64,000 bases of DNA from Brevinema andersonii (lineage in GTDB: Bacteria > Spirochaetota > DYKD01), in the NCBI GenBank assembly GCA_020722765.1, contig DYKD01000007.1, positions 1 through 64,000 of the forward strand, in the 5' to 3' direction. The position numbers and the translations under genes are program-made. A model generated the notes under the pieces. That model was not told where the DNA came from and searched no databases. It saw only the letters and a list, made by a program, of their open reading frames with translations. Within the stretch, counting starts at the first letter, position 1; each line of letters starts with the position of its first letter. Shown piece by piece: positions 12,396 to 22,498 of this stretch.

Positions 12396-12712
12396 TGACA
12401 AGGAAGGATAAATCAAAATTATTGTACGAACCTGTCCGTTTCAGGATAGTCACTTTTCTTGCAGCAGAAGAAGCGAAAGAAATCTCTTTTAACATGATCA
12501 AAGACGGCTTGAAACTTACAGCAGGAAACCTTTCCATCCAATTAAAAAAATTGGAACATGAGAATCTGATAAAAACAAGCAGGGAATTCAGGGACAACAA
12601 ACCATTGACGACTGTCTATATCACAAAGAAAGGTTATTCTTTGTTGACAGGACATCTGGAAGAAATGAGTCATATATTAGAAAAACTTAAAAAACAGGAG
12701 GCTCATGAATGA
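12395..12712 (+). CDS. Winged-helix transcriptional regulator (HTH_34/MarR-like)
   Basis: The 105-residue protein is a single winged-helix domain: YEPVRFRIVTFLA, then LTAGNLSIQLKKLEHENLI as the recognition helix region, then TTVYITKKGYSLL as the wing. This pattern matches the small ArsR/PadR/MarR-like group with a C-terminal helix for dimerisation. No metal-binding cysteines are seen. It overlaps the upstream gene by one base and the LolA-like gene by four (ATGA). It probably controls its own operon through the palindrome at 11688-11706. Confidence 0.88.
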   Translation: MTRKDKSKLLYEPVRFRIVTFLAAEEAKEISFNMIKDGLKLTAGNLSIQLKKLEHENLIKTSREFRDNKPLTTVYITKKGYSLLTGHLEEMSHILEKLKKQEAHE

Positions 12713-13452
12713 AAACCATAACTTTCATCGTATTCCTATTGAATGTTGTTGTTTGCAGCTTTAATCTTCAATCCATGACTGCTGAAGATGTAATCAATAA
12801 GGTTGATGCCAACCAGGAATTCAAAAATGAAAAATTTTCAGCACGCATGGTCATCAGCAAGAACAAGAGACAGTTAATCAAGTCTTTCACAGGTTACAGT
12901 CAGAAGGTTGGAAGTAAGTCTTTTATGGTGTTTACTAATCCTGAAGACAAAGGTGTTAAATATCTCAAGCTGGAAAACGAGCTTTATATCTATCTTCCAG
13001 ATGCACAGGACACAGTGAAAATATCCGGTCATATGTTACGTCAAGGGATGATGGGCAGTGACATTTCTTATGAAGACATGCTGACAAGCGATTCACTTCA
13101 GGACAAATATGTTTCAGTCATCGTCGGGAAGTCTAATTACAAAGGACGAAACTGTTATCATGTACGGATGACAGCTCAAAAGGATAATGTTACTTACTAT
13201 ATGCGGGAAGCATACATTGACAGTTCTCAATTTGTGGTCTTAAAAGTGAGTTTGTATGCTAAGAGCGGACGTATCCTAAAGCAGATGTTGTTTGATGATA
13301 TCAGACAGATTGGTGGGAGGTATATTGCAAACAAAATGTCCATTCAAGATATGACACGGAAAGGATCTCTGACGCAGTTGGAATTTTCGTCCATTGAATT
13401 TGATGCTCAGTTGCCAGCTGATCTTTTCACTAGAAATAACCTGTTACGATAG
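12709..13452 (+). CDS. LolA-like outer membrane lipoprotein-sorting protein
   Basis: A periplasmic protein of 247 residues with a signal peptide (TITFIVFLLNVVVCSFNLQS). It has the features of the LolA_like family: AEDVINKVDANQEFKNEKFSARMVI, then YLPDAQDTVKISGHMLRQGMMGSDISYEDM and a C-terminal set of beta strands. LolA folds as an open beta barrel that carries lipids or lipoproteins across the periplasm. This family is regularly encoded beside MacB/FtsX-type ABC transporters, as here. AGGAGG precedes the ATG by seven bases. The cargo is unknown; it need not be a lipoprotein. Confidence 0.88.
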   Translation: MKTITFIVFLLNVVVCSFNLQSMTAEDVINKVDANQEFKNEKFSARMVISKNKRQLIKSFTGYSQKVGSKSFMVFTNPEDKGVKYLKLENELYIYLPDAQDTVKISGHMLRQGMMGSDISYEDMLTSDSLQDKYVSVIVGKSNYKGRNCYHVRMTAQKDNVTYYMREAYIDSSQFVVLKVSLYAKSGRILKQMLFDDIRQIGGRYIANKMSIQDMTRKGSLTQLEFSSIEFDAQLPADLFTRNNLLR

Positions 13453-13462
13453 GAATGTGATT

Positions 13463-14506
13463 ATGATGAAAAGAATAATTATCCTATTTCTTGTTTTTTT
13501 TACGGGTTTTTGTTTTTCAGATGTGCAGATCAATGGAAAATTTAATCATGATTCTGTGATAGTAAAAACTACAAACGATTTTAATTATACTGGAATAGCT
13601 GAATTTCGATTGATTATGACACGTATTTCAGACGATTGGCGTTTTTATTCAGATATTGGCTTGACTTCATATCTTGGAAATGCCGCAGTTCTTCCTTTCC
13701 CTGGTCTTTTTGATGTAAAATCACTGTTTATCAAATATGATTCAGGAATAGGGCAGTTTATAATAGGCCGTGCATATATTAACCTGGGACTTCCTGCTTT
13801 GTTTAATCCTTTTGAATTGAACAAAAATATCAGGTTTTCAGAACTATCCTATGAGAAGACAGGTATTGATGGGTTAAGCTATGATCTTGGTTTCGGTGAA
13901 TTGTCTGGAATAAGACTGTTTTTTATACCAGACAAGGATGCAAGTCTTATATCTGCGGGAGGAGATATTCGCATACATTCAACTTTCATAGATATGGGAT
14001 TTGTAGTCTCAAGAAAAAATGTGAATAACCATACCATAGGAACATATTTCCAGACTGATCTGATTTTAGACTTGAAAAGTGCCTGTGCCATTCATTTTGA
14101 TGAATCATTGAATTCCAAAGGTTCAGAAATTTCATTGAATTTGGATTATAGCTTGTTTGCAAATACAGTTGTCATCAATTCTGCATTTTATTACGCTGAA
14201 AAAGGTGCGACAAAATTATCAGATTACATCGTGTTACATGAAGATGATAGGTATATGACAGCAAGATACTATCTCTACATAGGTTCAGTATTCCAACCAG
14301 ATGAGTTCATGTCTGTCAACCTGGATTCATTCGTGAATATTATAGATAGCAGCTCTCTGCTTGTTCCATCTTTTACATACTTGCTTTCTAACGGACTGAC
14401 TGCATCCTTGTATGTCCCTTTTGTTTTTGGTTTTGCAAATGAGGAATTTTCAACTAAAAAATATGGTATCTTTAGTGTGGATTTACGTCTTGTTGCTAAA
14501 TTGTAA
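13463..14506 (+). CDS. Predicted outer-membrane beta-barrel protein
   Basis: No family recognised. I start at ATG 13463 rather than the track start, because the extension lies inside the previous gene while MKRIIILFLVFFTGFCFSD is a clear signal peptide with AGGA eight bases upstream. The 347-residue product is rich in alternating polar/hydrophobic strands, aromatic residues and glycine turns (AEFRLIMTRISDDWRFYSDIG), typical of outer-membrane barrels. It has almost no helical hydrophobic segments after the signal. It sits between the LolA-like protein and the ABC ATPase, so it may be the outer-membrane end of the same system. Confidence 0.75.
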   Translation: MMKRIIILFLVFFTGFCFSDVQINGKFNHDSVIVKTTNDFNYTGIAEFRLIMTRISDDWRFYSDIGLTSYLGNAAVLPFPGLFDVKSLFIKYDSGIGQFIIGRAYINLGLPALFNPFELNKNIRFSELSYEKTGIDGLSYDLGFGELSGIRLFFIPDKDASLISAGGDIRIHSTFIDMGFVVSRKNVNNHTIGTYFQTDLILDLKSACAIHFDESLNSKGSEISLNLDYSLFANTVVINSAFYYAEKGATKLSDYIVLHEDDRYMTARYYLYIGSVFQPDEFMSVNLDSFVNIIDSSSLLVPSFTYLLSNGLTASLYVPFVFGFANEEFSTKKYGIFSVDLRLVAKL

Positions 14507-14523
14507 AGTTTTAGGAGGTTATT

Positions 14524-15192
14524 ATGTTGTTAGAAATCAATGATGTGTCAAAAACGTATCATGTAGGAAAGGTTGAAGTCAAGGCATTATCTTCAATCAA
14601 CCTGAAAATTGATAAAGGTGAATTTTCTGCATTTTGTGGTCCTTCCGGTTCTGGAAAAACGACACTTCTGAATATAATTGGATGTATTGACAATGCTGAC
14701 ACAGGTATCATGCGGTTAGATGGAAAAGACCTGGCAGGACGTTCTCCTGATGATTTTGCTCTCCTGAGAAGGGAATATTTCGGATTCATATTCCAGACAT
14801 ATAACCTTATTCCCGTTCTAACTGTTTTTGAAAATGTAGAGTTGCCATTACGGCTTATGAAACATTTTTCAGAATCAGAAATCACAGATAAAGTAATGAC
14901 AGTCCTGAAAAAGGTTGGTTTAGAGGAGATGGCATTCAGGAAACCAATGGAACTTTCAGGAGGGCAACAACAGCGGGTTTCTATAGCTAGGGCTCTTGTG
15001 AAAGGTCCTAAGCTGATTTTGGCAGATGAGCCTACTGCCAATCTTGATTCAAAGACAGGAGAATCAATCATCAATCTGATGGAAGAGATGAACCAGTCAG
15101 AAAAAGCGACATTTATTTTTTCTACGCATGATCCTTTGGTTATGAAACATGCTCGAAGGATAATCAATCTACATGACGGTATGATCCAATAA
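14524..15192 (+). CDS. ABC transporter ATP-binding protein (LolD/MacB type)
   Basis: The 222-residue ATPase has Walker A GPSGSGKTTLLN (about residue 39), a Q-loop at FIFQTYNLIPVLTVFENVELPL, signature LSGGQQQRVSIARAL, Walker B LILADEPTANLD and an H-loop STHD. The EFSAFCGPSGSG and ENVELPL patterns place it in the LolD/MacB/FtsE group, which drives mechanical extraction of lipoproteins or peptides rather than transport through a channel. AGGAGG lies upstream of the ATG. Both downstream permeases are of the matching FtsX/MacB type. Confidence 0.95.
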   Translation: MLLEINDVSKTYHVGKVEVKALSSINLKIDKGEFSAFCGPSGSGKTTLLNIIGCIDNADTGIMRLDGKDLAGRSPDDFALLRREYFGFIFQTYNLIPVLTVFENVELPLRLMKHFSESEITDKVMTVLKKVGLEEMAFRKPMELSGGQQQRVSIARALVKGPKLILADEPTANLDSKTGESIINLMEEMNQSEKATFIFSTHDPLVMKHARRIINLHDGMIQ

Positions 15193-15211
15193 TTCTAAAA
15201 GGAGGCCCTGT

Positions 15212-16441
15212 GTGAAATACCTCATCTCACTTGCATGGAAAAATATTTTACGATATAAACGTAGGACGATCCTTACTTTTGTACTGCTGTCTGTCAGCAT
15301 GATGATGTATATCATCATGGACGGTATGTTTGCAGGCATGGATAAGATGACCATGGATAATTATGTGAATTTTGAAACAGGCCATTTCAAAATCTTAAGT
15401 GAAAGATATGATGAAGATGCGCCATTATCAATGAGTAATTTCATGAAAGATCCAGATTCAGTGATGGATAAGCTTCGAGATAAAAAATATGTCTCTGCAA
15501 TGACAAAAAGAGTCCAATTCATGGCAGAAGCTGACAATGGGATTGATGCTACCCCCTGTGTTGTAACTGGAATTGACAAGGTGACAGACAGTGCTGTTTT
15601 TACTACGACAAATTTCATCATGGATGGCAGTTTTCCCCAGGAAGAAGGAGTTGCTGTGTTAGGATTTGAGCTTGCAAAAAGTCTAGGTCTGGAAGTAGGC
15701 AGTTTATTTTATCTGACATTCAGGAATGAACAGGGAATGATAGACTCTGTGTCCTTTACAGTGAGTGGTCTGATTAATGCCCCTTCACCCATGGTGAATT
15801 CTTCAGGTGTGTATGTTTCCCTTCAAGAAGCATTGAGACTATTAAACACGGATGGAGCTACAGAAATCACTGTCATGATAAATGACCCTGAAAAATATAA
15901 GGATTATCTACCTGACCTTACTGGAACTTTAGCAGGATACAAAATCAAGAACTGGAAAGAGATGTCTAAGGATGTCACTTCCCTCATGGATACAAAAAAG
16001 AAATTTTCATATCTGTTCGTCATGGCTCTTCTCGTCATTGCTGTGGTAGGGATAGTTAACACTATGCTCATGTCGATATTTGAAAAAACCAAGGAAATCG
16101 GGATGCTCAAGGCAATAGGAATGAGAGACAAAGATATTGAACGGCTTTTCATGATAGAAGGTTTTCTTCTAGGTGCAATAGGAGGACTTTTCGGGATTCT
16201 CCTCGGTTCTTTAGTCAACTGGAATTTTGTAGTCAATGGGATCGATTTCGGTTCTATGGTTAAAGGATCTGAAGAGATGATGAATAGTCTCAGGATGCAG
16301 GATGTGTTATACTCAGCATGGAGCATCAAGACCTTGTTGACAAGCTTCATATTATGTGCAGGTCTTGGCACTCTTGCCAGTTATTATCCTGCCAGGAAAG
16401 CCACTAAGATGCAGGCAGTCGAATGCTTGCGTGTAATCTAG
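15212..16441 (+). CDS. ABC transporter permease, FtsX/MacB type (first)
   Basis: The 409-residue permease has one N-terminal membrane helix (KRRTILTFVLLSVSMMMYIIM), a large periplasmic domain of about 230 residues and three C-terminal helices starting at FSYLFVMALLVIAVVGIVNTMLMSIFEKTKEIGMLKAIGM, the FtsX signature. It ends PARKATKMQAVECLRV, as in LolC/MacB proteins. The start is GTG with AGGAGG six bases upstream. It overlaps no neighbour and lies 19 bases after the ATPase gene. It probably pairs with the next gene as a heterodimer, like LolC with LolE. Confidence 0.93.
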   Translation: MKYLISLAWKNILRYKRRTILTFVLLSVSMMMYIIMDGMFAGMDKMTMDNYVNFETGHFKILSERYDEDAPLSMSNFMKDPDSVMDKLRDKKYVSAMTKRVQFMAEADNGIDATPCVVTGIDKVTDSAVFTTTNFIMDGSFPQEEGVAVLGFELAKSLGLEVGSLFYLTFRNEQGMIDSVSFTVSGLINAPSPMVNSSGVYVSLQEALRLLNTDGATEITVMINDPEKYKDYLPDLTGTLAGYKIKNWKEMSKDVTSLMDTKKKFSYLFVMALLVIAVVGIVNTMLMSIFEKTKEIGMLKAIGMRDKDIERLFMIEGFLLGAIGGLFGILLGSLVNWNFVVNGIDFGSMVKGSEEMMNSLRMQDVLYSAWSIKTLLTSFILCAGLGTLASYYPARKATKMQAVECLRVI

Positions 16442-16449
16442 GAGGAATT

Positions 16450-17685
16450 ATGTTGTTAAGACTGAAATTCGCTTTCAGAAATGTTCTTCGTAACAAGCGT
16501 AGGACATTGCTTTCTGCGCTTTCTATCTTTTTTGCTTCAGTAATTGTGGTCATAGCTATAGGTTGGTTTTCAGGCATTATGGAAATGATGTTTCAGAATT
16601 ATACAAAATATCAGACAGGAGACTTACGTGTCGTTTCTGAATATTATCCTTCACGTGAAAAATTCATGCCTGTGGATGAAATCATACAGGATTCCGATCC
16701 TTTGATAAGTGAACTGAAAAGTCTCAAGGGTGTGAAGAAAGTGGAGGAGCGTGCAAGATTCGGGATAATGCTTGCATCAGGTGACAGGACAGTCCATGCT
16801 ATAGGGATGGGAATCGATTTTAAAACGAGTGAATTTGATATCAGATCATCATTGGTTGATGATTCAGGAAACAGGTTTACAGATCCTCAATTAAAGGAGG
16901 AAGGATTGTATATTGGCCAGCAATTGGCTGAAAAACTGAAAGTAAAACCAGGTGATGTCCTTCTGCTTGCAGCACGTACTTCTGAAGGAGGAATCAATGG
17001 AATTAAGTTAAAAATCAATGGAATGTTCAGGATGGGTATGTATGCATATGACAGCAAGTTTTTTTTCATTACTTTGACTGATGCAAAACGTCTATTAAAA
17101 CTGGGGGAGGCCACTACTGAAGTTTTCATTTATAAAGATAAAAAAATCAATGAAAAAAACATTTTAGAAGCAGTAAGGAAGATTTTACCTTCTGGTATTA
17201 TTGTCCAGACACCGGCTGAACAGATAGGTGCGTATTACAGTGCTTTGGAAATGTCACAGACAGTGTATAAGGTGTTTCTTTTATTCATATTGTTTCTTGC
17301 CTCATTTGTGGTCATTAATACGATGATAATGTCGATTTTTGAAAGGATCAAAGAGATAGGGACATTGAAAGCTATAGGTATGACTGACAAGGAATGGTTT
17401 GTCAATTTCACATTGGAAGGTGCCATAATAGGAGGGATGGGAGGGATTACTGGTACAATAATAGGAGCATTGCTTGTGATTATCATGTATTATACAGGAG
17501 TTGACATGGCTGATGCAGTAAAAGGACTAGATATGCCGATTGAATCCATCATAAGACCCAAAATAGGTATTGGAGGTTTTTTATTCAGCCTTATTGCATC
17601 TGTGTTAGTACCGACTTTAGCAGCTATGATTCCTTCCCGCTATGTGAAACAATTTACACCTGCTGAAGCATTAAGAAAAGTATAG
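16450..17685 (+). CDS. ABC transporter permease, FtsX/MacB type (second)
   Basis: This second permease (411 residues) shares the layout of its neighbour: basic N-terminus FRNVLRNKRRTLLSAL, one helix, a periplasmic domain, then FVVINTMIMSIFERIKEIGTLKAIGM and two more helices, ending PSRYVKQFTPAEALRKV. The two are clearly paralogous but well diverged, which fits a heterodimeric LolC/LolE-like transporter. I move the start from 16423 to ATG 16450 because AGGAGG lies four to five bases before it and the longer form runs back into the first permease. The operon ends 15 bases later in a hairpin. Confidence 0.93.
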   Translation: MLLRLKFAFRNVLRNKRRTLLSALSIFFASVIVVIAIGWFSGIMEMMFQNYTKYQTGDLRVVSEYYPSREKFMPVDEIIQDSDPLISELKSLKGVKKVEERARFGIMLASGDRTVHAIGMGIDFKTSEFDIRSSLVDDSGNRFTDPQLKEEGLYIGQQLAEKLKVKPGDVLLLAARTSEGGINGIKLKINGMFRMGMYAYDSKFFFITLTDAKRLLKLGEATTEVFIYKDKKINEKNILEAVRKILPSGIIVQTPAEQIGAYYSALEMSQTVYKVFLLFILFLASFVVINTMIMSIFERIKEIGTLKAIGMTDKEWFVNFTLEGAIIGGMGGITGTIIGALLVIIMYYTGVDMADAVKGLDMPIESIIRPKIGIGGFLFSLIASVLVPTLAAMIPSRYVKQFTPAEALRKV

Positions 17686-18037: not shown

Positions 18038-18589
18038 CTATAAAAGTGTATTCTGTTTTAAATTGTTTGTAAAAAGTGTTATGTATTCCATGAAAGATGA
18101 AAACTCAGCATTTTTATTTTTTACACCTAGTTTAATGAGTATTTTTGTGAAAGGATTGTTCAGATGGAGACTTCTGATGAAGATGGTACTTGTACCACCT
18201 GTTTGCGCTGGTAGGATGATGACTGTAAGCGAGCCAGGTTCTCGGGATTCCTGTTTATAGTATTTTACAACTTTTCTGCCAGGATTCCATTCTCTTATTT
18301 CGTATGTGTCAAAACTGTCATCATTATATATTTCTTTATAAATTGTCTTATTTGTTCCTGAGGCAATCTTTTCAATATTGACGATATTTGTCCTCCAGAC
18401 AAGTTGGAAGTCATTATCTGCAAGCCTATCCCAGATAAGGGCTGGTGGATAGTTCAAGTCCAATACAATTTTTTTATTGATTTGTGAGGGTAGAAACAGA
18501 CCGATAATCAGTATTATTAAGAGAAGAAGAACCGGAATACCAACTATAAAAGTTAAAGGCATTGTGTTGATTTTTTTTTTGTTCTTCAT
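18038..18589 (-). CDS. Membrane-anchored SRPBCC (START-like) domain protein
   Basis: The protein has 183 residues from the ATG at 18589; the track begins three codons earlier at a GTG that overlaps the ribosome site GAGGTGG. An N-terminal membrane anchor (PLTFIVGIPVLLLLIILIIGLFL) precedes a domain with VLDLNYPPALIWDRLADNDFQLVW, YEIREWNPGRKVVKYYK and a C-terminal amphipathic helix. This pattern matches the polyketide cyclase/START-like fold that binds hydrophobic ligands. The ligand is unknown. A -35/-10 pair (18635-18630, 18612-18607) with a 17-base spacer precedes it on the minus strand. Confidence 0.7.
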   Translation of the reverse strand: MKNKKKINTMPLTFIVGIPVLLLLIILIIGLFLPSQINKKIVLDLNYPPALIWDRLADNDFQLVWRTNIVNIEKIASGTNKTIYKEIYNDDSFDTYEIREWNPGRKVVKYYKQESREPGSLTVIILPAQTGGTSTIFIRSLHLNNPFTKILIKLGVKNKNAEFSSFMEYITLFTNNLKQNTLL

Positions 18590-18606
18590 AGATACCACCT
18601 CTGTAT

Positions 18607-18635: not shown

Positions 18636-18774
18636 AACTAACAATTGAAGATTTGTCAGCATAATGTCACTTATAGTTGTATTTTGTATTCTTTAAAATA
18701 GAATAAATATTTTTTTTTAGGATAATAGGTTTTGATAATATATAATTATGAATATTGAAATAAAGGACGGTGCT

Positions 18775-19734
18775 ATGAAAAGAAAATTATTATTGGTATT
18801 TATCATCGTGCTAGGATTAAGCATAAGTCTTTATACGCAAGAGATTCAAAATGTTGAAAGCAATCAGAATGTTCAAGTGACTGATCAGGAAACTGTCTCA
18901 GACTCGACAAATGACAATAAAGCTCCTATGACAACCAAACAGGAGCAACAGACGAATGAGGTTATCAATGAGGCTCCTGCTGTGGTTGTTCCAGAAACAT
19001 CATTGAGTTTCAGCGTTTTCGGGAATACGCGTACATATCTGGATGTCTATTCAAGGATCATTACCAGAATTCTTGAGTTGTCACCGGACTTTGTAGTGAA
19101 TACAGGCAACTGTGTAAATACATATAACAATGATAATGAGTGGTTGAAATTCAAGAAAGCGTCAAAACCATTGTTCAGTTCAACAAAGTATTATGCTCTT
19201 CCTGGAAAACTTGATTTCTTATCATCAGATTTTTATAAGATATTCAATCTTCAAAAGACAAAAGCATACATCTCTATTCCACAAAATGATGTTCTTTTCA
19301 TTTTTTTGGATTCCAATATGTTGAAAAAAGAAGATGATGAACAATATGAATGGATCAAAAAGACATTGGAAGATTCTTCTACATCAAAATTCAAGATATT
19401 ATTCATACATTCCCCGCTATATTCTTCTGGAGAATCGGGAGGATTTAAGCAGATGCAAACTTTGATCCGACCATTAATTGATACCTACAGAATCGATGTC
19501 GTTTTTTCCGGTCAGGAAGCCAGTTATGAACGGCTCAGTATTTCCAATACACATTATATAGTGACTGGTGGCGCAGGAGCACCACTTACTGGAGAGGGAG
19601 TGAAGCTTGATAAGAGTGTGATTTTCAAACGGGAAAACCATTTCTGTCATGTCAAGATCAAAGGGAAGGAACTGGCATTTACAGCGGAAGGCATTGATGG
19701 ATCAGTACTTGATTCATTCACATTGACAAAATGA
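18775..19734 (+). CDS. Secreted metallophosphoesterase-fold protein lacking metal ligands
   Basis: Signal peptide KLLLVFIIVLGLSISLYTQ, then a low-complexity Gln/Asn/Thr linker and a calcineurin-like domain from about residue 75. All five motif positions can be found, but four are changed: FGNTR (usually GD), TGNCV at 111-112 (usually GD), PGKLD at 143-147 (usually GNHD) and SGQEASYER at 245 (usually GHxHxYER). Only the motif IHSPLYS keeps its histidine (H212). The fold framework is intact, so this looks like a pseudo-enzyme rather than a decaying gene. The start at 18775 is chosen for AAGGAC upstream. Binding or scaffold roles are inference. Confidence 0.8.
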   Translation: MKRKLLLVFIIVLGLSISLYTQEIQNVESNQNVQVTDQETVSDSTNDNKAPMTTKQEQQTNEVINEAPAVVVPETSLSFSVFGNTRTYLDVYSRIITRILELSPDFVVNTGNCVNTYNNDNEWLKFKKASKPLFSSTKYYALPGKLDFLSSDFYKIFNLQKTKAYISIPQNDVLFIFLDSNMLKKEDDEQYEWIKKTLEDSSTSKFKILFIHSPLYSSGESGGFKQMQTLIRPLIDTYRIDVVFSGQEASYERLSISNTHYIVTGGAGAPLTGEGVKLDKSVIFKRENHFCHVKIKGKELAFTAEGIDGSVLDSFTLTK

Positions 19735-19735
19735 C

Positions 19736-22498
19736 TTAATGTCCTGCTGGTTTAAGCTTCCCATGCCGTAAAAAATATTTGTCCCGGAGGATAATCCTCT
19801 TCTTGTTGGCATTTACAAAAATAATATCATCAGCCCGACCAGGGTCTCCTAGATAAACAGCTGCAAGATATTCCTTTTCTTTGTTTCCAATTTCACTGAT
19901 GTCAATGGCAGGGAAGCGTATGATCTGGTCAATTCTGATCATATCCACATCACCAATCCGGTTATACCATGCGATATCTTCCCAGTAGTTTTTATTGTTT
20001 TGGAGTGTTGTCTGCAATGTTTTTCGTATAATACCAGACAAGGTATCCCTGAATTTCACCGTGTAAATGAAATCTCCTGATTTTTCGACTTTTTTCTTCT
20101 TCAATGTCAATGACAATGGCATGCTGAGGGGAATGCTTTCATTCTCTTTGTTATCTACTGATTTTACGATAAACAGGTATTCATCTCTTGGAAGATTTGT
20201 AAATATGACAAAATTTGTAAAAATAACCTGAAAATTTGTTGTTTTACCTCTGGTGTTTTTGTTGAAAGAATACTCATGTCTGGAAATGCCATTTTCATCA
20301 GTCGCTGACCATGTAAAAGAAAGGGAAGGGATCGTTTTCAGATTGGTCTTTTTATTTATCTGTTCTATTGGTTCACTGATCATAAGATTGCTGATGGTTG
20401 GACCTTTTTCATCCCTATACACTGAAAATGGAAACATACCATTCGTACTCCAGTTCCCTGATGGATCAACAGATTGGACTTTGAAAAACCAGTCGCCATT
20501 CCTGATTTTTGTGATTTTGATCTGGTTTGTACGTATTCTTATCTGCTTGGGAGGATTTTCATTTGGATCTTTTGTCAATATCCATGAATATCCTTTGATA
20601 CCGAACTGGTCATAACTTGACCAAATAAATTCAATCGAATTGTTTGAAGTGACAGTATATCCTGGTATGGTAAGGGAGGATACGTCTGGTTTTGTAGGTC
20701 TGATATCATCTCCTTTCACTATGATATTGAAACTCTGGGGGAATCCCCAGTTTCCTGCCATGTCTACACATTTCACATTCAAGAAATGACTGCCAACTGG
20801 AAGTCCTGATATGTCCAACCTGTTTGTTGTACTGTTAATCCTGTTTGGCGGATTTTCCTTTGTCTTGCTGATAGTATAACTATATCCTTGTATCTTGTCT
20901 TCATCACGAGAGTTGATATAGAAGTCTCCTGCTGTCTTAAAGGATCCCCATCCATCTGCAAAATCAGGGGATTCGATTGATGTGATTTCAGGTCCTCGTG
21001 TGTCAAGGATTAATTTGAATCTTTTAGTTTCACTCCAGTTGCCTGCATTATCAATTACTTTTATATGGAAATAATAGGTGCCATCAGCAACAAGATGAAG
21101 AGCCGTAGAAAAATTCGTGGATTCTATATTCATAATGTCGGGTTCTGAAAAAGGATTTTGGTCGAATATCGTAGCAAATCCCCTGATGCCGGAAATATCC
21201 GGCATGGGTTTCACTGCAAAACGCACCATGCGCTCACGTGATGCAACTCCATCCTCGTGTGTAGATGAATAAAGGTCTGGAGGCAGGATATATCTGTCAG
21301 GGATTCTAATGATGATATAAGAAGATTTTGTCTTTTTCTCTTCTGATTGCCAGGCGACAAGGATGTCGTTTTTTATTTTGATAGCTGATGGTTTCTTGTT
21401 GTTACGATGGTTGTCACTTAACTGTATTTCAACTCCTTTTTTCTCTCCTGTATTGCTGTCAATTCCCATATACATGACATGATCGTTTTTCCCTTTGTAT
21501 TCATGCCAAAAAAGGGCCAATGAGCCGTTATCATTTATCGGCATAGGCCAGTGAGTATTGTTTTTTGTATGGATAATCTGTTTTTCATCTTTCCAGAGGA
21601 TCTCTTTGTTATCCTGTATTTCACCCATCCTTGAATGGATTTCCCAGGTGTTGCTGATATTTTTTTCCCAAAACAAGAAAAGCTTGCCATTCTGGTTTGT
21701 CTCTTCAGGTCTAGCAGGTGTGAATATCAACGTCGGTCTGATATCATCAAACCTATTGACTGTGAGCCTTTTTGGCAGACTCCATGTTCGCCCTCTGTCA
21801 GGGCTATGTAAAAGAAAAAGTTCATCATTGATGATTTCCTCGCCACCACCAGAACGGTTCTGCAATGCAAGATAGATAGAATCATTCCTGCATACGACAG
21901 ACGGGAAAAAGTCGCCTCTGTTTTTTGCATCCCTGTTTTCTATATTCTGAAGAATAGGTCTGGGGGGCGACCAGGTTTTCCCTTGATCTATACTTTGTGT
22001 GAGGTAAAGCGTAAATTTCCCATTGTATTCCATATGAGAAAAAAGATGGGCTGTCCCCGCAGTATCAATAACAAGTGTAGGTACAAAAATGGACTCTTTG
22101 TCTGGCAAAATCCTGGCAGTTGTCCATGTTTTCCCAGCATCATCACTTCTTAGGATATGAAGCCGTGTCTTTACATCATTCATGACTATCAAAATGCTGT
22201 TTTGAAAAGTTCCACAGGACAGTGGGAAAAAAATAAGGTTGCTTGATTTATAAATTGTCCGAATAGGACCTGTGAGTCTGTGATTCGTGTTAAGTTCCTG
22301 CCAGCAGATCTCACTTCTGTTTGAGATGTTATTGACAAAAACAATGGCCGTTTTCCCATTGACATGTATCCATTGTGGAAAATGAATATTTATTTTTTCA
22401 GGGATGGTCATTGGCTCATCCCACCCAGAAATTTGGGAATATAATGTGCAGGATAAGTTAAATAGGAAGACTATAATTAAAAATGAAAAATATCTCAA
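19736..22498 (-). CDS. Large secreted Asp-box/beta-repeat protein with C-terminal LysM
   Basis: The 920-residue exported protein starts at TTG with AGGAG eight bases upstream. Its signal region FSFLIIVFLFNLSCTLYSQ may end in a relaxed lipobox. The N-terminal 400 residues carry at least three sialidase-type Asp boxes (SDDAGKTW, SIDQGKTW, SPDRGRTW), suggesting a beta propeller. Next come four Ig-like repeats with the pattern F.V...D.AGNWS. The last 100 residues form a LysM-like domain (YTVKFRDTLSGIIRK...IRIDQIIRFP), which would bind peptidoglycan. No sialidase catalytic set is evident. It converges with the pseudo-phosphoesterase gene, the stops being one base apart. Confidence 0.8.
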   Translation of the reverse strand: MRYFSFLIIVFLFNLSCTLYSQISGWDEPMTIPEKINIHFPQWIHVNGKTAIVFVNNISNRSEICWQELNTNHRLTGPIRTIYKSSNLIFFPLSCGTFQNSILIVMNDVKTRLHILRSDDAGKTWTTARILPDKESIFVPTLVIDTAGTAHLFSHMEYNGKFTLYLTQSIDQGKTWSPPRPILQNIENRDAKNRGDFFPSVVCRNDSIYLALQNRSGGGEEIINDELFLLHSPDRGRTWSLPKRLTVNRFDDIRPTLIFTPARPEETNQNGKLFLFWEKNISNTWEIHSRMGEIQDNKEILWKDEKQIIHTKNNTHWPMPINDNGSLALFWHEYKGKNDHVMYMGIDSNTGEKKGVEIQLSDNHRNNKKPSAIKIKNDILVAWQSEEKKTKSSYIIIRIPDRYILPPDLYSSTHEDGVASRERMVRFAVKPMPDISGIRGFATIFDQNPFSEPDIMNIESTNFSTALHLVADGTYYFHIKVIDNAGNWSETKRFKLILDTRGPEITSIESPDFADGWGSFKTAGDFYINSRDEDKIQGYSYTISKTKENPPNRINSTTNRLDISGLPVGSHFLNVKCVDMAGNWGFPQSFNIIVKGDDIRPTKPDVSSLTIPGYTVTSNNSIEFIWSSYDQFGIKGYSWILTKDPNENPPKQIRIRTNQIKITKIRNGDWFFKVQSVDPSGNWSTNGMFPFSVYRDEKGPTISNLMISEPIEQINKKTNLKTIPSLSFTWSATDENGISRHEYSFNKNTRGKTTNFQVIFTNFVIFTNLPRDEYLFIVKSVDNKENESIPLSMPLSLTLKKKKVEKSGDFIYTVKFRDTLSGIIRKTLQTTLQNNKNYWEDIAWYNRIGDVDMIRIDQIIRFPAIDISEIGNKEKEYLAAVYLGDPGRADDIIFVNANKKRIILRDKYFLRHGKLKPAGH

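Follow-up and report, generated by a model that had tools for sequence, protein, structure and literature searches.

Inactive scaffolds built on the metallophosphoesterase (MPE) fold are known in eukaryotes. In VPS29 of the retromer, the phosphoesterase fold serves as an interaction scaffold (PMC4256932), and PMC7539009 cites Collins 2005 under a title that says the same. GAP50 of Plasmodium, reported as an active phosphatase, uses the purple acid phosphatase (PAP) fold as the membrane anchor of a protein machine (PMC8949495). Pseudophosphatases are described as acting by competition, allostery or scaffolding (PMC10211241), and those reviewed in the literature examined are mainly eukaryotic. 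A literature search for an exported bacterial pseudo-MPE found no paper, which is weak evidence of novelty as subscription journals lay mostly outside the search.

The closest described relatives of the protein reported here belong to the PAP-like bacterial and archaeal branch of PF00149 (YGDTR / TGDLV / GNHE / FHHPxYS / SGHDHNYER). They share its fold, motif surroundings and YER tail, with identities of up to ~32%, but intact members carry all seven ligand/catalytic residues and this protein only one.

The gene, its motifs and the predicted fold

The window (the whole 64-kb stretch of DNA analyzed) carries the gene of a degenerate MPE, predicted to be exported, at 18775..19734 on the plus strand, as are all features of the gene given below. 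It encodes 319 aa (stop included in the coordinates) in an open, uninterrupted frame, and its GC3 is 0.347 compared to 0.327–0.361 in neighboring genes. The ATG at 18775 was favored over an in-frame ATG at 18748 because a putative ribosome-binding site, AAAGGA (18762..18767), sits 7 nt upstream of the former. Residues 1–21 (18775..18837), a low-confidence region of the model, consist of KRK and then a hydrophobic run, and probably form a signal peptide or signal anchor; there is no lipobox Cys. The protein is likely to be exported via this N-terminal signal sequence. A Q/V/E/N/T-rich linker follows (aa 22–75; 18838..18999), probably disordered, with low pLDDT blocks to about residue 70, and then the MPE-fold domain (aa 76–319; 19000..19731).

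The PF00149 profile matches the protein with an E-value of 3.6e-7 (31.2 bits, curated cut-off 21.5). An AlphaFold2 model, built from 63 sequences (the window protein and relatives on named contigs), has a full-length pTM of 0.78 and block-mean pLDDT values of 88–98 over residues 81–319; most of residues 75–319 are above 90, and 230 residues score at least 90. The best structure matches in the PDB are the PAPs 7ov2, 1qfc and 1xzw (Foldseek E ~1e-17, TMq 0.63–0.69), so the comparison with metallophosphoesterases proposed in the original prediction gave a confident model with PAPs at the top. GAP50 (3tgh) is also among the matches, VPS29 appears far down (TMq 0.40–0.41), and a PDB sequence search returned PAPs and GAP50 again. 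The profile score, the confident model and the PAP matches together place the protein, as modeled, in the PF00149 fold superfamily.

The PAPs (pig 7ov2, sweet potato 1xzw and kidney bean 4dhl) are thus the best PDB matches in both fold and sequence, but the window protein differs from them in its lost ligands and low identity (~18%), and in having Asn115 where PAPs have their Tyr ligand (GDxxY, the third residue past the Asp of motif 2); of the 94 intact relatives aligned, just 22 have Tyr in this column. The suggestion of a PAP-like pseudo-enzyme stands for the fold and fails for the Tyr ligand, and the protein is predicted to be PAP-like in fold only. Likeness to GAP50 is likewise one of fold reuse: GAP50 is eukaryotic and has reported acid phosphatase activity (PMC8949495), whereas the metal centre of the window protein appears to be gone. 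VPS29 is cytosolic, eukaryotic and distant from it within the superfamily.

Motifs were compared with a reference set of 84 complete intact relatives from many phyla, among which 25 positions are at least 85% conserved and the motifs read GDTR, TGDLV, GNHE, HHPxYS and SGHDHNYER. In the window protein, motif 1 is FGNTR (residues 82–86; 19018..19032), with D to N at 84, and motif 2 is TGNCV (residues 110–114; 19102..19116), with GD to GN at 112. In motif 3, PGKLD (residues 143–147; 19201..19215), GNH[ED] has become GKLD through N145K and H146L, and the acidic residue is kept. Motif 4, IHSPLYS (residues 211–217; 19405..19425), retains the ligand His212. Motif 5, FSGQEASYER (residues 244–253; 19504..19533), has GQEA for GHxH, so that both His are lost and YER is kept. 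All five motifs had been read correctly from the sequence, including the near-total loss of ligands (both GD Asp to Asn, GNHD to GKLD, GHxH to GQEA), to which we add that H212, the motif 4 His, is the sole metal ligand left.

The seven ligand/catalytic positions are thus N84, N112, K145, L146, H212, Q247 and A249, where all 84 complete intact relatives have D, D, N, H, H, H and H. Whereas the window protein keeps one of these seven, it keeps 15 of the 18 other conserved positions (Fisher p = 0.0029; the hypergeometric value is the same). An active metallophosphoesterase would carry the full ligand/catalytic set over the five motifs, and by this alignment only one-seventh of it remains; the catalytic motif is, on the same reading, absent, as the definition of a pseudoenzyme requires. 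The observation of a degenerate exported MPE is confirmed and is more than chance.

Ligand-less relatives in Spirochaetota

With the window protein as sole query, no orthologue of it was found in GTDB genome contigs or viral contigs, no phage match was found, and plasmid matches were only 22–32% identical. Among the genomes searched for relatives, none is closer than phylum level. Since the nearest homologues are intact but at most about 34% identical, no known orthologue exists from which the gene could have decayed recently; such recent decay had been named beforehand as the finding that would overturn the prediction. The proposed search for the same substitutions in orthologues yielded no true orthologue, but ligand-less relatives occur elsewhere in Spirochaetota.

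The largest such group is a family of degenerate MPE lipoproteins, present in 39 of 393 Spirochaetota genomes; these score above 230 bits, and the next match reaches 88 bits. A full ligand set was seen in none of the 30 members read (L174–L203). Like the window protein they show a GNT / TGN / GxxD / H / non-His pattern, with Asn at 84 in 26 members, Asn at 112 in 19, Asp at 147 always and His at 212 in 26; they differ in their lipobox Cys, in SPF and GGxxxMGI motifs, and in being linked to glyA in several loci. By the lipobox Cys and by profile score (63.6 bits compared to 230–384 for members), the window protein would lie outside this family. The family is old. In five loci (L072, L073, L074, L076 and L085, the context of L184, L185, L178, L179 and L190, respectively), glyA lies directly upstream of the lipoprotein gene. 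In four of the five a short ORF of ~93–103 aa comes after it, and a comM-type gene is nearby in four; the glyA locus is a conserved neighborhood around a protein without metal ligands.

A second group comprises degenerate MPEs of Brevinematales (L018–L021, L130 and L136) together with one f25 protein. The Brevinematales proteins resemble the window protein in being exported and ligand-less, in keeping the motif 4 His, and in mostly having GN in motif 1 and GN in motif 2 (23–25% identity), but differ in an extra N-terminal beta domain, an adjoining purD gene and GMDN in place of GQEA. In the predicted structure of L136, the N-terminal beta domain accompanies the MPE fold, and in three loci (L066, L067 and L068) the Brevinematales gene directly follows purD. 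A further protein, encoded at L030:1393-3615 (+), combines a degenerate MPE-like domain (GN, GN, GNNE, without GHxH) with a glycosyltransferase-like domain, a membrane region lying between the two.

Pairwise NG86 dN/dS values, where dS was measurable (values of dS above ~1.6 being near saturation), were 0.07–0.18 in the lipoprotein and Brevinematales groups, which are therefore maintained. The purifying selection that had been predicted is thus seen in two related groups; the window gene has no close relative in the collections searched, and its own selection would be read only from its conserved scaffold (p = 0.003).

Trees were computed with the seven ligand/catalytic columns taken out. The window protein, the Brevinematales group and the lipoprotein family stand apart in them; the best tree has four changes to the ligand-less state, the starred branches force two, and an earlier tree agrees. 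Approximately unbiased (AU) tests did not reject a single clade of window and Brevinematales proteins (p = 0.28), of window protein and lipoproteins (p = 0.195) or of all three groups (p = 0.075), long branches limiting the resolution. About four separate ligand losses appear to be favored over a single origin. It is conceivable, though we put it forward only tentatively, that exported PAP-like MPEs of Spirochaetota have several times independently become metal-free binding proteins, each mostly by Asp to Asn changes in the motifs, the lineages being the window protein, Brevinematales, the glyA-linked lipoproteins and the MPE-glycosyltransferase fusion. If true, these proteins would make up a class of pseudophosphatases that bacteria maintain outside the cytoplasm.

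The original prediction considered an exported degenerate MPE unusual in a bacterium. Within Spirochaetota this view needs correcting, as such proteins recur in dozens of genomes. Among named relatives from many phyla of both prokaryotic domains, only two Brevinematales loci were ligand-less; rarity outside Spirochaetota is indicative only, as it rests on 80 named loci and a search pattern that was not neutral, even if some degenerate letters were allowed. Two further ligand-loss flags among the named relatives were incomplete rows and were not counted. A maintained, phylum-wide family points to extracytoplasmic reuse of the MPE fold in metal-free form, and the intact relatives, several ligand-less groups and predicted structures provide a ready comparative set for asking what the metal-free fold binds. 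They also carry a warning for annotation: some PF00149 matches in Spirochaetota, the window protein included, would be named phosphoesterases despite their missing ligands.

Proposed function and alternatives

We consider it probable that the gene product is an exported pseudo-metallophosphoesterase, metal-free and maintained for a putative binding role. The N-terminal signal sequence would take the protein through the inner membrane. Its folded domain, of the calcineurin/PAP type, would then sit in the periplasm or on the cell surface, at the end of a flexible linker ~50 residues long. A dinuclear metal centre is not expected, given the replacement of both Asp, of the bridging Asn, of both His in GHxH and of the catalytic His in GNH, and the domain would therefore most likely act through binding. 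A candidate ligand is a phosphorylated or anionic molecule, held unhydrolysed in a polar, metal-free pocket (N84, N112, K145, H212 and Q247); alternatively, the ligand may be a protein partner. Absence of metal and of activity is what the replaced residues predict.

The polar pocket also fits an unlikely but not negligible alternative, a changed enzyme running a metal-independent or mononuclear reaction with migrated residues. Migrated catalytic residues are known from other pseudoenzymes (PMC10211241), and the protein keeps H212, an acidic side chain at 147 and YER. Shared new chemistry would, however, be expected to leave a common residue set, and no new set is common to the three ligand-less groups: position 145 is Lys in the window protein (with L146), Gly or Val in Brevinematales and mostly Glu or Asp in the lipoproteins, an argument that does not touch chemistry private to the window protein.

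The gene might also be a decaying, functionless relic that has lost catalysis and is drifting to loss. It is confined to a single lineage with no orthologue found, and five of the six ligand/catalytic changes need one nucleotide each (H249A needs at least two). Yet neutral drift would be expected to strike ligand and scaffold alike, and losses of 6/7 compared to 3/18 speak against it, as do the intact frame, the confidently predicted fold, the normal GC3 and the purifying selection in related ligand-less groups; we rate a relic as slightly less likely still. The claim that the scaffold was kept while the metal chemistry was lost is sustained by the same position counts, predicted fold and selection in related groups.

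Less probable again is a role in regulating an active paralogue, in which the protein would pair with an intact PAP-like enzyme of its own cell or compete with it. This is a known mode for pseudophosphatases (PMC10211241), and two of the Brevinematales genomes encode both a degenerate copy and an intact relative (580–590 aa). In the window genome, however, a search finds one such protein at E ≤ 1e-3, namely itself, and the eight other PF00149 proteins did not emerge as relatives; their motifs look canonical where a simple pattern could read them. The assembly is ~92% complete, so that an intact paralogue could be missing. That a normal enzyme was merely distorted by errors of assembly or sequencing is hardly credible, even in a genome split over 371 contigs, given six substitutions in four separate motifs, an open frame and like substitutions in dozens of independent assemblies.

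Neighboring genes

For the pseudo-metallophosphoesterase with a putative binding role, the gene context names no partner. The gene stands alone, with a divergent neighbor on one side and a convergent one on the other, and no operon or neighborhood shared with other degenerate MPE genes was found for it. ABC ATPases that grouped across neighborhoods probably reflect general ABC similarity and not shared context. No RNA families were found in the 64-kb window, and scans for consensus promoters and terminators around the gene gave no more matches than in shuffled sequences. The divergent neighbor (18038-18598) is a small membrane-associated ORF without a Pfam match. The convergent neighbor (19736-22498, minus strand) has its end 2 bp away from that of the MPE gene and encodes an exported protein of 920 aa that carries BNR repeats, Ig-like/PKD domains and, at its C-terminus, a weak LysM. 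Further upstream, 12709-17685 (plus strand) is an apparent operon for a LolA-like protein, an exported protein without a Pfam match, an ABC ATPase and two FtsX/MacB-type permeases.
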